DNA of 23,400 nucleotides from a virus. How positions within the stretch are numbered: the stretch's first letter is position 1; every line of letters starts with the position of its first letter. The notes under the pieces were generated by a model, which made no database searches, was not told the origin of the DNA, and worked only from the letters and a program-made list of their open reading frames with translations. Made by a program: the position numbers and the translations under genes. The stretch is from positions 1 through 23,400 of the IMG/VR virus record IMGVR_UViG_3300032282_003084; one strand, written 5' to 3'. Below are positions 3,683 through 20,345 of this stretch, piece after piece.

Positions 3683-5545
3683 ATGTCTAACTGGTCTAAC
3701 CTTGCAAAAGTAGTTTATAAGCGCACATATGCCCGTAAGGACAATGGGACGCTAGAAAATTGGGCAGATACTGTTGAGCGTGTAGTTCGTGGTAATGTTC
3801 AAGGTCATAATGTTTCAGCGGAAGAAATTGAGCGTTTGCGTTATTACCTACTTAATCGCAAGGCAGGACCAGCTGGGCGTGGTTGGTGGTATAGTGGCGC
3901 ACCAAGTCATAAAAAGCTTGGTGGTGTAGCATTAAATAATTGCTGGTTCGTAGCTAGTGATGAATGGAATAACTTTGTATTGGCACAAGACTTGCTAATG
4001 CTTGGTGGTGGTGTTGGTATGAGCGTTGAACACCGCTTTGTTTCAAAATTGCCAAGATTAAAGAAAGATGTAAATATTGTTAGCCGTGAAACAAAAGATG
4101 CAGACTTCATCGTTCCAGATTCCCGTGAAGGTTGGAATGAATTAACTCGCAGAGTATTAGAAGCTTATTTTGTAACTGGTAAGTCTTTCTCATATTCTAC
4201 TGTTTGTATCCGCCCAGCAGGAGAACAAATCAAAGGTTTCGGCGGCGTATCCAGCGGTCCAAAACCATTAGTAGTTTATGTAGAAAAATTGGTATCACTA
4301 TTAAAGTCCCGTGAAGGTCGTCATTTACGTCCTGTAGATGCAGCAGATATTCTTTGCTCAATTGGAGAAATGGTTGTAAGCGGCAACGTTCGTCGTTCTG
4401 CAATTATTATTCTTGGCGACCCTTGGGATAAGGAATATTTAAAAGCAAAGCGTTGGGATTTAGGCAATATCCCAACTCAACGTGCTATGGCTAACTTCTC
4501 TGTTGTTGTAGACGATGTAGAAGATTTACATCCCTTATTCTGGAAAACATATGAACAAGGCGAACCATTTGGTATTGTAAACCGTAAGAACATCCAGAAA
4601 TATGCACGCATGGGCGATTTAAAGCCCGATACAGCAGTTGGTGTAAACCCATGTGCAGAAGCTACATTAGAAGATGGTGAACCATGCAACCTTCAAGAAA
4701 TTGCGTTACCTAATCTTTTAAACGAAGAAGAATTTATTGAAGCAGCACGTTTAATGCATCGTTGGGGTAAACGTGTAACTATGGAAACATATCACCAACC
4801 AAAATGTGACGCCGTTGTGAAACGTAATCGCAGAATTGGTACAGGTATTACAGGATGTCTACAAAGTCCGCTATTTAATCCTGACACATTAGATAGAGCT
4901 TATGCGGCAATCCAAAAAGAAAATCGGGAATACTCAAAAGAATTAAATATTCCAGAAAGTATCCGCACTACTGTTATTAAACCAAGTGGAACCATTAGTA
5001 AAGTTATGGATTGTTATGAAGGCGTACATCCAGCTTATTCACGCCATATTATTCAACGTGTACGCTTTGCTGGTAATGACCCGCTACTTCCATTATTACG
5101 TGAAGCTGGTCATTATATGGAACCAACAATTCGTTTTGATGGCACATTAGACCACAATACACAAGTTGTAGATTTTTATGTTGCTGCACCAGAAAATGCC
5201 CCTGTAGCTGACGAGGATTGGACAACATGGAAACAATTAGATGTTGTTAAAATGGCTCAGAAACATTGGGCAGACCAAGCAGTAAGCGTTACTGTATATT
5301 ATAAGCAAAGCGAATTAGAAGAATTAAAAACTTGGTTAAAAGATAATCTTAAGTATCTAAAGACTATTTCTTTCCTTTGCCACAGTGAACATGGTTTTAA
5401 ACAAGCACCAAAAGAAAAAATTAGCAAAGAACAATATGAAAAATTATCTGCTAAGATTAAACCAATTAATATTGATAATGGAGTTGGAGATGGAGACTTA
5501 TTAAGTTCGCTAGAATGTGAAGGCGGCGTCTGTCCAGTTAAATAA
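3683..5545 (+). CDS. nrdJ: Adenosylcobalamin-dependent (class II) ribonucleoside-triphosphate reductase, monomeric type
   Basis: This 620-residue enzyme would convert ribonucleotides to deoxyribonucleotides with a B12-generated thiyl radical. It follows the monomeric RTPR pattern of Lactobacillus leichmannii. LNNCWFV provides the first redox cysteine (C87). NPCAEATLEDGEPC provides the radical cysteine C324, the catalytic E326 and the second redox cysteine C335. The extreme C terminus ECEGGVCPVK carries the shuttle pair C612/C617. All key residues are present. It is about 120 residues shorter than the roughly 739-residue Lactobacillus enzyme, with losses spread over the N terminus and internal loops, so allosteric control may be simplified. 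No NrdB-like radical subunit is needed or seen. It follows the thioredoxin gene by 13 bases with an AAAGGAA ribosome-binding site, and a terminator follows it. Confidence 0.93.
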   Translation: MSNWSNLAKVVYKRTYARKDNGTLENWADTVERVVRGNVQGHNVSAEEIERLRYYLLNRKAGPAGRGWWYSGAPSHKKLGGVALNNCWFVASDEWNNFVLAQDLLMLGGGVGMSVEHRFVSKLPRLKKDVNIVSRETKDADFIVPDSREGWNELTRRVLEAYFVTGKSFSYSTVCIRPAGEQIKGFGGVSSGPKPLVVYVEKLVSLLKSREGRHLRPVDAADILCSIGEMVVSGNVRRSAIIILGDPWDKEYLKAKRWDLGNIPTQRAMANFSVVVDDVEDLHPLFWKTYEQGEPFGIVNRKNIQKYARMGDLKPDTAVGVNPCAEATLEDGEPCNLQEIALPNLLNEEEFIEAARLMHRWGKRVTMETYHQPKCDAVVKRNRRIGTGITGCLQSPLFNPDTLDRAYAAIQKENREYSKELNIPESIRTTVIKPSGTISKVMDCYEGVHPAYSRHIIQRVRFAGNDPLLPLLREAGHYMEPTIRFDGTLDHNTQVVDFYVAAPENAPVADEDWTTWKQLDVVKMAQKHWADQAVSVTVYYKQSELEELKTWLKDNLKYLKTISFLCHSEHGFKQAPKEKISKEQYEKLSAKIKPINIDNGVGDGDLLSSLECEGGVCPVK

Positions 5546-6417: not shown

Positions 6418-7137
6418 ATGACTAACGATACGATTTATTTATACGATGATAATATTGGCCGTGTTCAATATGTTCAACATGTTGGTAACGATAAGATGAT
6501 TGTAAATGCTGCCCGTGTATCTTTTGGACAAGATAATCAAAAAGAGTTAGATGATAGAGATAAAAAGCTCATTCGTTATCTTATTAAGCATCGTCATACA
6601 TCAACACTTGAGCATTGCAGTATTACGTTTAAGTTTGTTGTGCCCCTATATATTCGTTCGCAACATCACAGACATCGTACATGGTCATATAATGAAATTT
6701 CTCGTAGATATACAGACGAGAATTTACAGTTCTATCAGCCAAAAGCATTTCGCACACAACATAAAAGCAATCGCCAAGCCAGCAATAGCGAAGAATTAGT
6801 TGACCCATTAATAGATATTGGAGAATCAGGTTTTTCTGCTATTATGCCAGCATCTGCATTAATTGAAAATTGGCATAATAATTGTCTCAGGTTATATAAT
6901 CGTTTATTAGATTCTGGTGTTTGTCGTGAACAGGCAAGAGGTGTATTACCGCAGAATCTTTATACCGAATATTATGGCACTACGAACTTAAATAATCTTT
7001 TTAAGTTTGTTGAATTACGTACTCATGATGGAGCGCAATGGGAAATTCAGCAAGTTGCAAAATCTTGTTTAAAAATGGCAGAAGAATTATTCCCAGAAAC
7101 CATTAAAGCTTATAATGAAATAAGAAAAGGCGAATAA
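6418..7137 (+). CDS. thyX: Flavin-dependent thymidylate synthase ThyX
   Basis: This 239-residue protein would make dTMP from dUMP with methylenetetrahydrofolate and reduced FAD. The diagnostic ThyX motif RHRTWSYNEIS (85-95) matches R-H-R-x7-S exactly, and RRY follows. H60-TSTLEH supplies the usual upstream FAD-contact region (H-x-S-x-x-EH). The later NLYTEYYGTTNLNNLFKFVELR stretch fits the conserved C-terminal substrate-binding part (the N-L-R-x-x-x-x-F-x-x-LR pattern in relaxed form). It belongs to the dNTP supply set with RNR, thioredoxin and dUTPase. The stop overlaps the ATG of the next gene by 1 base, suggesting translational coupling. Confidence 0.95.
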   Translation: MTNDTIYLYDDNIGRVQYVQHVGNDKMIVNAARVSFGQDNQKELDDRDKKLIRYLIKHRHTSTLEHCSITFKFVVPLYIRSQHHRHRTWSYNEISRRYTDENLQFYQPKAFRTQHKSNRQASNSEELVDPLIDIGESGFSAIMPASALIENWHNNCLRLYNRLLDSGVCREQARGVLPQNLYTEYYGTTNLNNLFKFVELRTHDGAQWEIQQVAKSCLKMAEELFPETIKAYNEIRKGE

Positions 7138-7688
7138 TGACTTGTATAATTGGATATCTAAAAGACAGCACTGTACATATAGCGGCGGATAGTCAGATAA
7201 CTTGCGGTGCAAGAATTGATGAAAATAATTATGAGAAAATTTTAGTTAATGGCGATATAGTTGCTGCTTTTTCTGGTAACTTACATTGTGTCGTCGCATT
7301 AGAGACAGAGTTTAATAAACTAGAACCAGAAAAAGTAGTAACTTTAAAAAATGATATATATGATGTTTTTCTTAAGCCAGTAAGAAATTTAATTAAGCAA
7401 AGAGAAATACCAGATAACTCTATAAGTTTTAGAGCTTTGATAGCTAAAAAAAACGAATTAATTGAAACCGATAATAATTATGCTATTTTAAACGTTAGTG
7501 AAAAAATTAGTATAGGCTCTGGTTCGTTCCATGCTATAGGAAGTCTAGAAGCTTTAGACAGATTTAGCGCTCTATCACTTGAACAAAAATTAAAAACATC
7601 TATTTTGATTGCTAATAAATATGATGCTGGAACAAACGATAATATTAAATATTGCAATACAAAAGATTTAAAAATTATTAAACTATAG
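7137..7688 (+). CDS. Proteasome beta / HslV-like Ntn hydrolase (predicted threonine peptidase)
   Basis: This 183-residue protein begins MTCIIGY, so removal of Met would expose Thr as an N-terminal nucleophile. Relative to that Thr as residue 1, an Asp falls at position 17 (AADSQIT) and a Lys at position 33 (NYEKI). This is exactly the T1-D17-K33 catalytic spacing of proteasome beta subunits and HslV. A GSGS segment near residue 130 and a Y-D-x-G segment near 163 fit the positions of the S129 and D166 partners. Length agrees with HslV at about 175. No HslU-type ATPase is in the window, so any unfoldase would come from the host or elsewhere in the genome. The target is unknown; turnover of host or phage proteins is an inference. 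It lies between ThyX and the phosphomannomutase gene. Confidence 0.8.
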   Translation: MTCIIGYLKDSTVHIAADSQITCGARIDENNYEKILVNGDIVAAFSGNLHCVVALETEFNKLEPEKVVTLKNDIYDVFLKPVRNLIKQREIPDNSISFRALIAKKNELIETDNNYAILNVSEKISIGSGSFHAIGSLEALDRFSALSLEQKLKTSILIANKYDAGTNDNIKYCNTKDLKIIKL

Positions 7689-7698
7689 AAAGAGTAAT

Positions 7699-8415
7699 AT
7701 GATTAGTTATTTATTTGACATTGACGGAACATTAACACAGCCAAGACAAAAGATAACTCCAGAGTTTGAGGAATTCTTTTTTAATTGGATGCAAGATAGA
7801 ATGGTTTTTCTTGTAACTGGTAGTGATTTAGTTAAAGTAAAAGAACAATTAAGTGAAAGAATTCTTCTTTCCTGCCAAGGAATCTTTTGCTCTATGGCTA
7901 ATGAGCTTTATAAGGGAGACAAACAACTATACAAGAATGAGCTAAAGATATCCGATGAATTAATCTTTTGGCTTAAGCAGCAATTAGAAAGATCATCATA
8001 TCCCGTCAAGAGAACTAATAATTTAGAATTTCGTAGCGGCATGTTAAATTTCTCCGTAGCTGGTAGAGATTCTACTGTAGAAGAACGTAATGCATATTAT
8101 GAATGGGATAAGGTAAACGGCGAACGTCAAAGAATCGCTGATTACATTAATAGAACATATCCCGATATGGAAGCGTGTGTTGGTGGACAGATAAGCATTG
8201 ATATTCAAAACAAAGGTAAGAATAAAAGCCAAGCTAGTGCATTTGTTCGTATGCATGTATCTGATACAGATATTATTTTCTTTGGCGATAAAACAATGGT
8301 AGGTGGAAACGATAGAGCTATTGTAGAAGATATAATTAAGAATATGGATGGTTTTAGTGGTTTCTATCAAGTAGAAGGACCAGAAGATTTAAAAAGTATA
8401 TTAGAGCAAATTTAA
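7699..8415 (+). CDS. Eukaryote-type (HAD-superfamily) phosphomannomutase-like protein
   Basis: This 238-residue protein matches the alpha-phosphomannomutase (PMM1/PMM2) branch of HAD phosphatases along its whole length; human PMM2 is 246 residues. The catalytic motif DIDGTLTQPRQKI (7-19) has both aspartates. LEFRSGMLNFSVAGR, followed by VEERNAYYEWDK, covers the cap-domain substrate arginines. GGQISIDI and FFGDKTMVGGNDRAI form the Mg-binding closing motifs. PMMs interconvert mannose-6-phosphate and mannose-1-phosphate. One region differs: the PMM segment after GGQIS-x-D (usually FP-x-GWDK) reads IQNKGKNKSQ, which may change specificity or leave a plain sugar phosphatase. It starts a run with an unknown protein and a nucleotidyltransferase-like gene, and a mannose-6-phosphate isomerase cupin lies at 20349. 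Confidence 0.88.
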   Translation: MISYLFDIDGTLTQPRQKITPEFEEFFFNWMQDRMVFLVTGSDLVKVKEQLSERILLSCQGIFCSMANELYKGDKQLYKNELKISDELIFWLKQQLERSSYPVKRTNNLEFRSGMLNFSVAGRDSTVEERNAYYEWDKVNGERQRIADYINRTYPDMEACVGGQISIDIQNKGKNKSQASAFVRMHVSDTDIIFFGDKTMVGGNDRAIVEDIIKNMDGFSGFYQVEGPEDLKSILEQI

Positions 8416-10336: not shown

Positions 10337-11491
10337 ATGAGAAAGGCACTATTATTATTAATATTATTATCTTGCGGTAGTCCAAAAATTCAAAAATATA
10401 ATGTCTGTGGGCAAGTATGCCACCCAGATTCTAAAAAAGCTGGTGTTGGTGTTTGTACTTTGGGTTATTGGGAATGTGATAACCGACCAGAACCTGAATG
10501 TGTAGGTTATGGAGCGGCAGGTAAAGAAGTGTGTGATGGTTTAGATAATGATTGTGATGGCGCTGTAGATGAATCTATTATACAATCCTGCCAAACACAA
10601 TGCGGTGCTGGCTTTGAAATATGCAGCAATGGACAGTTTGTTAATTGTGATGCACCAAAACCTGAAACAGAAACATGCGACGGAAAAGATAATGATTGTA
10701 ATGGAAAAATAGATGATTTTCAACTCTTATCACAACCATGTTATACAGGAGATGCAGGAGATTTAATGTATGGCGAATGTCATCCCGGCTCTAGCAGATG
10801 TATAGCAGGAAAAGTACAGTGTGTAAATCAACAATTACCGCATTACGAAATGTGTGACGGCAAGGATAATGATTGTGATGGCGAAATAGACGAAAATGTA
10901 ACAAAACCAAACCGTTTAATAGATGTTGTATTTGTTATTGACGAAAGTGGGTCAATGGAAAGTGTTATTAGAAATATAGCTAATGTTTCTAAAACTTGGG
11001 TAACAAAATATAATAACAGAGCAGATTTAAAATTTGCAGTTGTTGCCGCACCTTGGTCTAATTCGGCATATGACTCGCAAACGTTGTTGATTCAAGATTT
11101 AGCTAATGCTAGTATTGCATCTATCGCCTTGTCTAACCAATATGCAGGTAACTGTACCTATGAACCAACATGGGATGCAATATATTTATTAAGTAATTCT
11201 CTTAATGAATTAGGCTTGACATGGAGAACAAACTCAGTTAAAGTGATTATTATGTTTACAGATGAAACAGGGCAATCTTACGAATATAACCCCCCACTTG
11301 TTTTGCAAGAAGTAGTAGATATGGCAGTCCAAGAAAATAGACATGTTTATGTTTTTACTGTTGCAAATGTTTATACGTCATACCAACCAATAGCTGATGC
11401 AACAGACGGTGGAATATATAATTTATATCTGTCTCAACCAGAAATGGAATCAGTATTAGACTCTATCGTAGCGGAGGAAACGTGCAAATAA
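10337..11491 (+). CDS. Secreted lipoprotein with three CDGxDNDCDG repeats and a VWA domain
   Basis: The 384-residue protein starts with a short signal peptide and a lipobox ending LLSC (C13), so it is probably lipidated and exported. Residues 20-190 are Cys-rich and hold three copies of an acidic metal-binding motif: CDGLDNDCDGAVDE (66-79), CDGKDNDCNGKIDD (114-127) and CDGKDNDCDGEIDE (173-186). These match the putative metal-binding (MopE-like) repeat common in secreted proteins of Myxococcota and related groups. A von Willebrand factor A domain follows (about 195-380), with the MIDAS start DESGSM (202-207) and a later MFTDETG strand. Such proteins bind divalent metal and other proteins at the cell surface. 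Nothing here suggests a virion part, so a host-surface change during infection (exclusion, adhesion) is plausible but inferred. The gene stop overlaps the next start by 10 bases. Confidence 0.88.
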   Translation: MRKALLLLILLSCGSPKIQKYNVCGQVCHPDSKKAGVGVCTLGYWECDNRPEPECVGYGAAGKEVCDGLDNDCDGAVDESIIQSCQTQCGAGFEICSNGQFVNCDAPKPETETCDGKDNDCNGKIDDFQLLSQPCYTGDAGDLMYGECHPGSSRCIAGKVQCVNQQLPHYEMCDGKDNDCDGEIDENVTKPNRLIDVVFVIDESGSMESVIRNIANVSKTWVTKYNNRADLKFAVVAAPWSNSAYDSQTLLIQDLANASIASIALSNQYAGNCTYEPTWDAIYLLSNSLNELGLTWRTNSVKVIIMFTDETGQSYEYNPPLVLQEVVDMAVQENRHVYVFTVANVYTSYQPIADATDGGIYNLYLSQPEMESVLDSIVAEETCK

Positions 11492-16119: not shown

Positions 16120-16911
16120 ATGCGTAAAGGCGTAAAAGAAAGAAGAATAGAAGGTAGGCACAAAATATGTCCTAATTGTAAAGCAGAATTTTGTTCTATA
16201 ACTCCAACTGGCTATAGAACACCAAAATCTGTTTCTTGTTCAGAAGAATGTGCTAGACTATTTGCTGTTAATAAAAGATATCAAAATGGTACGTATAGTA
16301 AAAACGACAAAGCAATAGAAAAGATGCACGCCACAAAACGGTCCAAAAATCCTGATTATGGCAAAAAATGGAATGCAGTTAAAGAGGCTATTAAACAAAG
16401 AGGATTGGGTGGTTTTGATAAAACCAAATATAAGCATTGGGCACAAACACCAGAAGGTAAAAAAAGAATTAGCGAAATTCATACTGGAAGATTTGTAGAA
16501 GAAAGCACAAGAAAATTAAATTCAGAAAGAATGAAAAAACTTCTTCATGAACATCCAGAAAAAGTTTATTCTAATGCTAATGGTGGTAGAAGAAAAGATT
16601 TAAATAATAAATATTTCCGAAGTAATTGGGAAGCCAACTATGCTCGTATTTTGAATGAGCAAAAAATCTCTTGGGAATATGAACCAGAAACATTTTCATT
16701 ATCTAATGGTTTAACATATACGCCAGATTTTAAAATTGCTCCAAATAAATATGTTGAAATTAAGGGATGGTATGACAATGATTCTAAAGAAAAGATAAGT
16801 CTCTTTTTAAAAGAGTATCCTCATTTAGAGCTTGATTTGATAGGCGAAACAGAGTATTATAGTCTTCGTAACGTATTCAAGAACAAAATTTCACTTTGGG
16901 AAGGTAAATAA
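16120..16911 (+). CDS. PD-(D/E)XK-type homing endonuclease with N-terminal zinc finger
   Basis: The N terminus of this 263-residue protein has a four-Cys zinc site (C17, C20, C40, C44). The middle is basic, with a helical ISEIHTGRFVEEST segment resembling the NUMOD3-like DNA-binding modules of homing enzymes. The C-terminal nuclease domain shows RSNWEANYARIL (E171), then TPDF (D203) and YVEIKG (E213, K215), a complete E...PD...ExK set. Arg codons are almost all AGA and the gene is very AT-rich. It is inserted between the small-gene cassette and the polymerase gene; its stop shares a base with the polymerase ATG. Its leader hairpin suggests tight translational control. Whether it cleaves DNA at the homologous site of related phages is inferred from the class. 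Confidence 0.82.
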   Translation: MRKGVKERRIEGRHKICPNCKAEFCSITPTGYRTPKSVSCSEECARLFAVNKRYQNGTYSKNDKAIEKMHATKRSKNPDYGKKWNAVKEAIKQRGLGGFDKTKYKHWAQTPEGKKRISEIHTGRFVEESTRKLNSERMKKLLHEHPEKVYSNANGGRRKDLNNKYFRSNWEANYARILNEQKISWEYEPETFSLSNGLTYTPDFKIAPNKYVEIKGWYDNDSKEKISLFLKEYPHLELDLIGETEYYSLRNVFKNKISLWEGK

Positions 16912-19900
16912 TGTCTGATAGAAAGAAATCATCAATTCCGTTTTTCTCTATGCATATGCACTCCACTTATTCTATCTATGATGGAATTGGCTATCCTGAT
17001 GATTTTGCTGACTTTTCTTATAGCAATGGGTTATCAGGAATGGCTATGACCGAACACGGTTCAATGAATTCCTTTAGCCACGCTTTCATGAAAGCCAAAA
17101 AAATGAAAGAGCAGGGAATAAATGACTTTAAGATTGCGTATGGAATTGAGGCTTATATTCACCCCTCAATCACCCAATGGAAGCAAGAACATTTAAAGCA
17201 CAAAGAAGATGCAAAGCTTGCAAAGCAAGTTGACGATGATATTGGTCTGGTTGTAGAGAATGAGAGCGAAACCAAGAAGGGTATTCGTTCTTCTCTTAAT
17301 CGCCGTTCTCACCTTGTCTTGGTAGCGCAGAATCAGAAGGGTCTAAACAATCTTTTCAAGCTTGTCAGCGATTCATATCGTGGCGATAACTTCTATCGTT
17401 TCCCACGTATGGACTATGAACTGCTTAAGAAACACAACGAAGGTATTATTGCAAGTTCCGCTTGTCTTGGCGGTGTACTTGCCAATGACTATTGGGATAA
17501 CATTGATAAGGGTGATAAGGCTGTTTATACAGCAATGGAAAAGACTGTCGGGAGCATGATGGATATCTTTGGCGACCGCTTTTACGGTGAATTACAGTGG
17601 GCAAACTATAAGGAACAGCACATTGTAAATCAATTTGTTATTAATCTTTCCAAGCAATTTGGATTCAAACTAATTAGCACTTGTGATGCACACTTCCCCA
17701 ATCCTGATATGTGGAAGGACCGTGAAATCTATAAGATGCTTGGTTGGGTAGGAAAAGGTGGTAATGACCTCAAAATTGACGCACTTCCACACACACTGGA
17801 AGAAATGGAATACCAGCTTTATCCCAAGAATGGTGACGAACTATTCGCAACGTATAAGCGTTTTTCAGGTCGTCTTGGATTTAGTTACGATGATAAATTG
17901 GTAGAGGAGAGTATCGCTCGTACTGCGGATATTCTCAAGAATCGCATTGAAGATTATATGCCTGATACAGCAGTTAAGCTTCCGTCCTTTGTTATTCCAG
18001 AAGGTGAAACCGCTGATAGTGCATTAGCAAAGATTGCCGTTGATGCACTAAAGAACACTGGTCTATATAAAGACAACGATTATGTTTCCAGACTTAAGGA
18101 AGAACTCCACACCATTAAGGACCGTGGATTCTCCAAGTATTTCCTTACAATGAAAAAGATTTCCGATAAGTCTAAGGAAGTCCAACTTTGCGGTGCAGGC
18201 CGTGGTTCAGGCGCAGGTTCACTTGTATCTTATCTCCTCAATATTACAGAGGTGGACCCAATCAAGTATAAGCTCCAGTTCTCACGGTTTATTCGCCGTA
18301 ATGCTAAGGACATGCCTGATATTGACTTTGACGTTTCCGACCCGATGGAAATCAAGGAAATGTTTATCAAGGAATTCGGTGAAAACACCGTTGTTCCTAT
18401 CTCAAATTATAACACTCTAAAGGCACGTTCACTTGTTAAAGATATCAGCAAGCTCTATGGTATTCCTTTTACAGAGGTAAACGAAGTTACGTCCAAAATG
18501 ATTCATGAGGCAACTCCTGTCTGTAAGAAGATTCATGGAATTATTGCGGGTGTATATGAGCCTACTTGGGAAGAGTTAAAGGAACACTCTCCTTCTCTTG
18601 TGTCATATCTAAAGAAGTATCCACACGTTGCGACACACGTTGATAACTTGCAGAAGCAGGTTCGTTCAATCTCTCGCCATGCTGGTGGTGTATTGTTTGC
18701 AGATAATATTGACCAAGTAATGCCGCTAATTAACAGCGGTGGTATTATTCAAACTCCTTGGACAGAAGGGCAAACTGTTCGTCACTTGGAACCGCTTGGT
18801 TTCATTAAGTTCGATATTCTTGGTCTTGCTTCACTCCGCATGATTGAAGGTGCGATTGAACATATCTTGAAGCGGCACCACAATATGCCAAATCCGTCAT
18901 TTGCGGATATCAAGAAGTATTACAACGAAAAGCTACATCCAGAAAAGATTGACCTAAATGATGCAAACGTATATAAGCATGTCTTTAATGAAGGCAACTT
19001 CTGTGGAACGTTCCAGTTCACCAGTAAGAATGCACAGAAATTCTGCATGCAAGCACATCCAAAGAACATTGTAGATATTGCCGCAATTACGTCAATTTTC
19101 CGTCCCGGTCCTCTATCTGCAAACGTTCATGAAAATTATATCACTGCAAAGAATAATCCTGAGTCTATTCGTTATGCGCATCCACTAATTAAAGAAGTAA
19201 CACAAGAAACACAAGGTTTTATTGTGTTTCAAGAGCAGTTAAGCCTACTCGCTCATAAACTAGGCAAGGATATCTCGCTGGATGAAGGCAACGAACTCAG
19301 AAAAGTTCTTACAAAGAAAGGCACTGGAAAAGAGGTTCAAGTTAAAGAGAAACTGTACAGCAAGTTCATTGCCGGTTGCACCGAAAAAGGTCTTTCAGAG
19401 GATGACGGAATCTCTCTTTGGAAGACTATGGAATTCTTCTCAGGATATGGCTTTAACCTTTCTCATGCTATCTGTTATTCTATACTTTCTTATCAGTGTG
19501 CTTATCTTTTCTATCATTACCCTGCTGAATGGCTTGCTGCATTTCTTACGAAAGAGCCAGAAGACAGAAAAGAAGCAGCAATAAGCCTTGCTAAGTATTA
19601 TGGATATAACATCAAGGGTCTAGACATTAATTTGTCTGGTACTAAATGGGAAGTTGATAGTGATGGTAAAACATTAATCCAACCGCTATCTTCTATTAAA
19701 GGTCTTGGCGATACTGCTATGGCGGAAATCATGAAGCATCGTCCATTTAGGGATGTAGAGCATTTACTATTCAGTGAAGATATAGTTTACAGCAAACTAA
19801 ACAAGAAGGCTTTGGACGCATTAACACGCAGCGGAGCTATGAATAATCTAATGGACAAAAGATTTACTGGATTAAAGCATTTCTGGTCTGCTGTTGTAGT

Positions 19901-20345
19901 AGACCGTCCAAAGAATGTTAAGAAGCTACATGAAAACATTGATAAGTATAAGCCAGAAGGAGATTTCACAACTGAAGAAACAATTGAAAATCTAACTTCA
20001 CTTTCTGGTGTATATCCAATCAACCTTGTCGTTGATGCTAAAACACTAAAGAACATTGAAGATAAATATATTCCTCCGATTGGAGACTATGAGCCAGCAT
20101 TAGGAGAAGTTGTTTGGTTTATTCCTCGTAAGATTACAGAAAAGAAAACAAAGAATGGTAAAATATTTTGGATTCTTGAAGTTACCGATATCACAAATAA
20201 GATTACAAATGTTAAGTGCTGGGGTGTGAATCCAGAAAAGGACAAGATTTGGCTTAACAGGCCATACTTGAGTAAGCTACAGTATGACGAAACTTGGGGG
20301 TTCAGTTCCAGAAGTATCAAACACACATTTAAACTATTAGGATAA
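16911..20345 (+). CDS. dnaE: DNA polymerase III alpha subunit, DnaE type, with PHP domain
   Basis: This 1144-residue C-family replicative polymerase is close to the size of bacterial DnaE. The N-terminal PHP domain keeps the HMHSTYS start (H15, H17), the TEHGS segment (E48, H49) and a later DAHFPNPD segment, so the metal site may be intact. The palm has AGRGSGAGSLVSYLL (about 427-441), MPDIDFD with D470 and D472, and KFDILGL with D635, giving all three catalytic aspartates. A helix-hairpin-helix region (IKGLGDTA) and a C-terminal OB-like domain (VVWFIPRKITEKK onward) follow. No separate epsilon proofreading subunit is visible here. It would copy the phage genome with the DnaB-like helicase and the 5' nuclease. 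It is translationally coupled to the endonuclease before it. Arg codons are CGT-rich over most of the gene, with more AGA near the 3' end. Confidence 0.95.
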   Translation: MSDRKKSSIPFFSMHMHSTYSIYDGIGYPDDFADFSYSNGLSGMAMTEHGSMNSFSHAFMKAKKMKEQGINDFKIAYGIEAYIHPSITQWKQEHLKHKEDAKLAKQVDDDIGLVVENESETKKGIRSSLNRRSHLVLVAQNQKGLNNLFKLVSDSYRGDNFYRFPRMDYELLKKHNEGIIASSACLGGVLANDYWDNIDKGDKAVYTAMEKTVGSMMDIFGDRFYGELQWANYKEQHIVNQFVINLSKQFGFKLISTCDAHFPNPDMWKDREIYKMLGWVGKGGNDLKIDALPHTLEEMEYQLYPKNGDELFATYKRFSGRLGFSYDDKLVEESIARTADILKNRIEDYMPDTAVKLPSFVIPEGETADSALAKIAVDALKNTGLYKDNDYVSRLKEELHTIKDRGFSKYFLTMKKISDKSKEVQLCGAGRGSGAGSLVSYLLNITEVDPIKYKLQFSRFIRRNAKDMPDIDFDVSDPMEIKEMFIKEFGENTVVPISNYNTLKARSLVKDISKLYGIPFTEVNEVTSKMIHEATPVCKKIHGIIAGVYEPTWEELKEHSPSLVSYLKKYPHVATHVDNLQKQVRSISRHAGGVLFADNIDQVMPLINSGGIIQTPWTEGQTVRHLEPLGFIKFDILGLASLRMIEGAIEHILKRHHNMPNPSFADIKKYYNEKLHPEKIDLNDANVYKHVFNEGNFCGTFQFTSKNAQKFCMQAHPKNIVDIAAITSIFRPGPLSANVHENYITAKNNPESIRYAHPLIKEVTQETQGFIVFQEQLSLLAHKLGKDISLDEGNELRKVLTKKGTGKEVQVKEKLYSKFIAGCTEKGLSEDDGISLWKTMEFFSGYGFNLSHAICYSILSYQCAYLFYHYPAEWLAAFLTKEPEDRKEAAISLAKYYGYNIKGLDINLSGTKWEVDSDGKTLIQPLSSIKGLGDTAMAEIMKHRPFRDVEHLLFSEDIVYSKLNKKALDALTRSGAMNNLMDKRFTGLKHFWSAVVVDRPKNVKKLHENIDKYKPEGDFTTEETIENLTSLSGVYPINLVVDAKTLKNIEDKYIPPIGDYEPALGEVVWFIPRKITEKKTKNGKIFWILEVTDITNKITNVKCWGVNPEKDKIWLNRPYLSKLQYDETWGFSSRSIKHTFKLLG

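Follow-up and report, generated by a model that had tools for sequence, protein, structure and literature searches.

Does a short open reading frame on a phage contig encode a proteasome-type peptidase, and if so, to which of the known proteasome relatives does it belong and with what partner would it act? The question is raised by the gene at positions 7137 to 7688 of the window, a 23.4-kb viral contig that is a fragment of a tailed phage. The product of this gene is referred to here as the Ntn protein.

The gene and its neighborhood

The frame is intact from the ATG start to the TAG stop and encodes 183 amino acids, with the N terminus MTCIIGYLKDSTVHIAADSQITCGARIDENNYEKI. Thr2, Asp18, and Lys34 can be read directly from the frame and correspond, in mature numbering, to the T1-D17-K33 spacing, so that the Met-Thr start, the spacing, and the intactness of the gene described in the initial annotation are all borne out. 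The relevant features are as follows.

7137..7688, + strand: proteasome-family Ntn hydrolase gene, 183 aa, predicted Thr nucleophile at codon 2
7140..7142, + strand: Thr2 codon (mature Thr1, predicted nucleophile), from the sequence; invariant, and aligned in the model to residue 1 of beta5/HslV/Anbu chains
7188..7190, + strand: Asp18 codon (mature Asp17), from the sequence; invariant in relatives
7236..7238, + strand: Lys34 codon (mature Lys33), from the sequence; invariant in relatives
7266..7268, + strand: Ala44 codon, at the oxyanion-hole Gly position of nearly all relatives, from the alignment
7515..7526, + strand: GSGS motif, residues 127 to 130; both Gly invariant, Ser128 equated with proteasome Ser129 via alignment to HslV IGSGG
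6418..7137, + strand: ThyX thymidylate synthase, upstream neighbor (PF02511, 7.6e-51)
7699..8415, + strand: HAD/phosphomannomutase-like protein, downstream neighbor (PF03332, 5.6e-31)

The TAA of thyX and the ATG of the Ntn gene share one base, and 10 bases separate the Ntn stop from the start of the HAD/phosphomannomutase-like gene, which places the Ntn gene in a tightly packed phage operon. A gene for a B12-dependent RNR also lies upstream, and together these three neighbors support the metabolic-operon setting proposed earlier. The downstream product matches both the Pfam family “Eukaryotic phosphomannomutase” (PF03332, 5.6e-31) and PHROG_29277 (function unknown). Elsewhere in the window, positions 16911 to 20345 encode a bacterial-type DNA polymerase III alpha subunit with a PHP domain, and the products of 524 to 1393 and 16120 to 16911 resemble, judging from the sequence, homing/recombination-associated endonucleases with zinc-ribbon-like cysteine pairs. 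A lipoprotein-like product (10337 to 11491), also present in the sister phage that carries the closest relative of the Ntn gene, combines MopE-type metal-binding repeats (CDGxDNDCDG) with a subsequent VWA domain; this gene may hint at a myxobacterium-like host.

The genomic context bears on one possible function, that of a head-maturation protease that processes phage structural proteins. The Ntn gene is a protease-like gene of a phage, and in some relatives' genomes a search for proteases of the S77 type, and of that type only, yielded no match. However, the sister phage possesses an S77 prohead protease within its structural block (PF03420, 2.8e-30; PHROG_207); its Ntn gene is ∼35 kb away, in a block devoted to nucleotide metabolism. 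Capsid maturation in this phage would therefore not need the Ntn enzyme. Furthermore, in those annotated phages that were inspected, the neighbors of the Ntn gene are metabolism and hypothetical genes rather than head genes. Processing of phage proteins, one of the functions suggested initially, is thus very unlikely to take the form of capsid maturation.

Homology, predicted fold, and conservation

The Ntn protein passes the gathering cutoff of the Pfam Proteasome family (PF00227; 26 bits versus 22.4) and matches PHROG_1040, “peptidase HslV family,” over residues 1 to 180 (5.2e-23). All 62 of the 62 relatives match PHROG_1040 and no other PHROG. For comparison with the profile scores given below, 200 shuffles of the Ntn sequence reached at best 4.9 bits against the phage-family profile and at most 7.1 bits across the phage-family, bacterial, and HslV profiles.

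Homologs are already known from phages, and the novelty implied by the initial annotation does not hold: tblastn matches 13 phage records, several of which are already labeled HslV family, proteasome subunit, or nucleophile aminohydrolase, and phage homologs have been reported in the literature (PMC8665760; PMC7823757). One pattern scan of IMG/VR recovered at least 334 related stretches, and a pattern scan of bacterial genomes recovered 180, the 80 listed being chiefly from Azospirillum, rhizobia, Frankia, Streptomyces, Dactylosporangium, Paenibacillus, and myxobacteria. Queries of IMG/VR with the single protein or the pair returned one close relative (L002, 79% at the amino acid level) and two distant ones. 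The pair query of genome_contigs gave no match, two single-protein scans gave the self-match or none, and the INPHARED phages contain no nucleotide match to the window. An alignment of 11 sequences was too variable throughout to supply a conserved stretch for scanning. Some relatives differ in architecture: those of Vibrio phages (L006, 8001 to 8984; L008, 4001 to 4963; L011, 4001 to 4867) carry long C-terminal extensions, for overall lengths of 289 to 328 aa, and in phage R16F (L009) the corresponding region carries annotations for two neighboring nucleophile aminohydrolase genes (4001 to 4642 and 4645 to 4989), perhaps a single frameshifted gene.

The AlphaFold2 model, built from 62 sequences, has a pLDDT of 95.3 and a pTM of 0.90. 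The best solved structures in Foldseek were HslV, which ranked first, and BPH (E ∼1e-12, TM 0.7 to 0.8), and VIA-align superimposed 165 to 175 residues on 20S beta5, HslV, and Anbu (Z 20 to 21, rmsd 2.2 to 3.1), placing residue 2 of the model on residue 1 of most of the listed beta5/HslV/Anbu chains. Helices at residues 49 to 61, 70 to 88, 130 to 140, and 148 to 162 form the pairs H1-H4; there is no fifth helix, and a short strand (170 to 174) is the final secondary-structure element (no H5/S12). The predicted structure is an Ntn sandwich, and both the model and the structure searches thus agree with the Ntn/proteasome fold expected from the catalytic spacing.

Conservation of the predicted active site was examined in 74 phage-set relatives and, in a separate alignment of 77 sequences, in 76 bacterial relatives. 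Thr2, Asp18, Lys34, Gly127, and Gly129 are invariant wherever the residue is present, so that the assignment of the triad stands in every aligned relative. The further active-site positions proposed for the GSGS and Y-D-x-G segments fared unevenly. The two glycines of GSGS are among the invariant residues, but the position of Ser128 is occupied by Cys in most relatives (52 of the 74 phage-set sequences that have a residue at this position; 58/77 in the bacterial alignment); in the second segment (YDAG, residues 162 to 165), the position of Asp163 is Ser, Asn, or Thr in nearly all relatives, whereas Gly165 is mostly kept (66/77). At the equivalent of the oxyanion-hole Gly47, the Ntn protein and its sister have Ala44, compared to Gly in 70 of the 74 phage-set sequences. 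Ala44 retains the backbone amide, and the substitution is therefore a variation rather than grounds for exclusion from the proteasome-like family, although, judging from the sequence, it could alter activity in the window clade.

Comparison of the Ntn gene with its sister gene in L002 yields a dN/dS of 0.18, indicating that the protein is under purifying selection. The dS between these two genes (7137 to 7688 versus L002 4001 to 4552) is 0.60, compared to 0.24 and 0.31 for two nearby genes, and the gene just upstream in the sister phage encodes a clearly different ThyX; the two observations together suggest local replacement of the thyX-Ntn stretch.

Placement among known proteasome homologs

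Given the fold and the ranking of HslV in the structure search, the Ntn protein might be a true HslV, derived from the host and working with host HslU. Of the 62 aligned relatives, it is indeed the one that fits the HslV models best, and it shares with HslV (ClpQ) the T1/D17/K33 residues, the IGSG motif, the fold, and the length. However, the matches to the HslV equivalog models, albeit full length, are far below threshold (TIGR03692, 37.4 bits versus 157.75; NF003964, 38.8 versus 137); the protein scores 72 bits against the phage-family profile, which was built without the window clade, and 53 against the bacterial one, versus 25 against an HslV profile made from three sequences only. Moreover, in the tree the three HslV sequences are separated from it by long branches. 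A host-derived HslV is therefore highly improbable. The Ntn protein also differs from HslV in having no propeptide and in the lack of an HslU match in the sister phage.

Two types of phage proteasome homologs, PPH and AAH, were described by Fuchs, Alva, and Lupas in 2021 (PMC8665760). PPH is, like the Ntn protein, a group I proteasome homolog carried by phage, but it has ∼140 aa and no helix H2 (PMC8665760), whereas the Ntn protein has 183 aa and an H2 at residues 70 to 88; identity with PPH was accordingly rejected. The resemblance to AAH/PHROG_1040 is broader: the MTCI- start, the triad, the GxG motif, a size of ∼180 aa, the compact group I subunit (H1-H4, no H5/S12) seen in the AlphaFold2 model, and an occurrence in phages as well as in alpha-proteobacteria, actinobacteria, and firmicutes. 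The size of the Ntn protein, the presence of H2, and the range of bacteria in which its relatives occur fit AAH, as described in print, better than PPH; from host range and size, we infer that the PHROG_1040 relatives are AAHs. The Ntn protein differs from them in its 18 to 27% identity to most members, its deep separate branch, the absence of the SFRMGQ signature, and the Ala in place of the oxyanion Gly.

Two other systems invite comparison. The beta-proteobacterial BPH (5ovs/5ovu) shares the fold (TM ∼0.8), and the Cupriavidus BPH also has a Thr-Cys N terminus, but the Ntn protein is only 18 to 22% identical to BPH and occupies a separate long branch. In the Salmonella jumbo phage pSal-SNUABM-04, an HslV gene has been reported without HslU (PMC7823757), a parallel that, going by the published description, consists in a phage HslV-type gene lacking its usual partner gene. 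The tree puts the Ntn protein together with L002 on a long branch of their own, with HslV/BPH on one side and all remaining phage and bacterial relatives on the other; the length of the branches makes this position uncertain. The Ntn protein is, then, a divergent member of a family of phage proteasome homologs described in 2021. We tentatively entertain the possibility that the window clade, that is, the Ntn protein and its one IMG/VR relative, is a separate, unnamed phage branch of group I proteasome homologs, intermediate between HslV/BPH and the AAH type, whose oxyanion site is modified and whose role in infection does not depend on an unfoldase.

Unfoldase partners and proposed function

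No HslU or AAA_2 match was detected in the 103-kb sister phage, and none above the cutoff in five named phages, which together with the 23.4-kb fragment represented by the window make up the scope of this statement; host HslU could serve instead. The sister phage gives a single weak AAA match, to a protein that is RecA-like by sequence; the match in G003 is, also by sequence, a polynucleotide-kinase-like protein. Among 20 large viral contigs that carry members of the family, 3 encode a ClpB_D2-small ATPase, but at ∼30 kb or more from the Ntn gene and hence not as a linked partner. The lack of an ATPase partner noted for the window thus extends to the sister phage and the five named phages; nor did Fuchs et al. 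detect an AAA+ interactor that co-occurs (PMC8665760).

Taken together, the Ntn protein is most likely a proteasome-family Ntn hydrolase (PF00227, PHROG_1040, AAH-like), namely, a Thr1 peptidase, probably ring-forming, that would function without a phage-encoded unfoldase. Because Thr follows Met and there is no propeptide, the initiator Met would probably be removed by the host methionine aminopeptidase, freeing the alpha-amino group of Thr1, which, with Lys33 and Asp17, would then cleave peptide bonds. The analogy of HslV and BPH suggests that the subunits would probably assemble into rings and, in the course of infection, act on proteins that are unfolded or on particular ones. Such self-compartmentalization, the breakdown of host proteins, and the use of an unfoldase supplied by the host, all raised in the initial annotation, would be compatible with an enzyme of this type.

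Homology to the proteasome does not guarantee proteolysis: connectase, a monomeric ligase, has a proteasome-like fold and belongs to the proteasome-like family (PMC8665760). The Ntn protein could accordingly be a specialized amidase or a connectase-like transpeptidase/ligase with a single protein as its substrate, and not a general peptidase. The altered oxyanion position and the lack of a detected unfoldase partner are consistent with such a specialization, but the predicted subunit has both helix pairs H1-H4; in connectase, the first of these is missing and an S3/S4 insertion is present (PMC8665760). We therefore consider this possibility rather unlikely and retain the Thr1 peptidase as the preferred assignment.

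Phage proteasome homologs are widespread (at least 334 stretches in IMG/VR), yet a search of the open-access literature turned up no test of function for any of them and no functional study later than 2021. With the family itself known, the remaining interest lies in the divergent branch; small, stable, and partner-free members such as the Ntn protein would be convenient for learning what viral relatives of the proteasome do.
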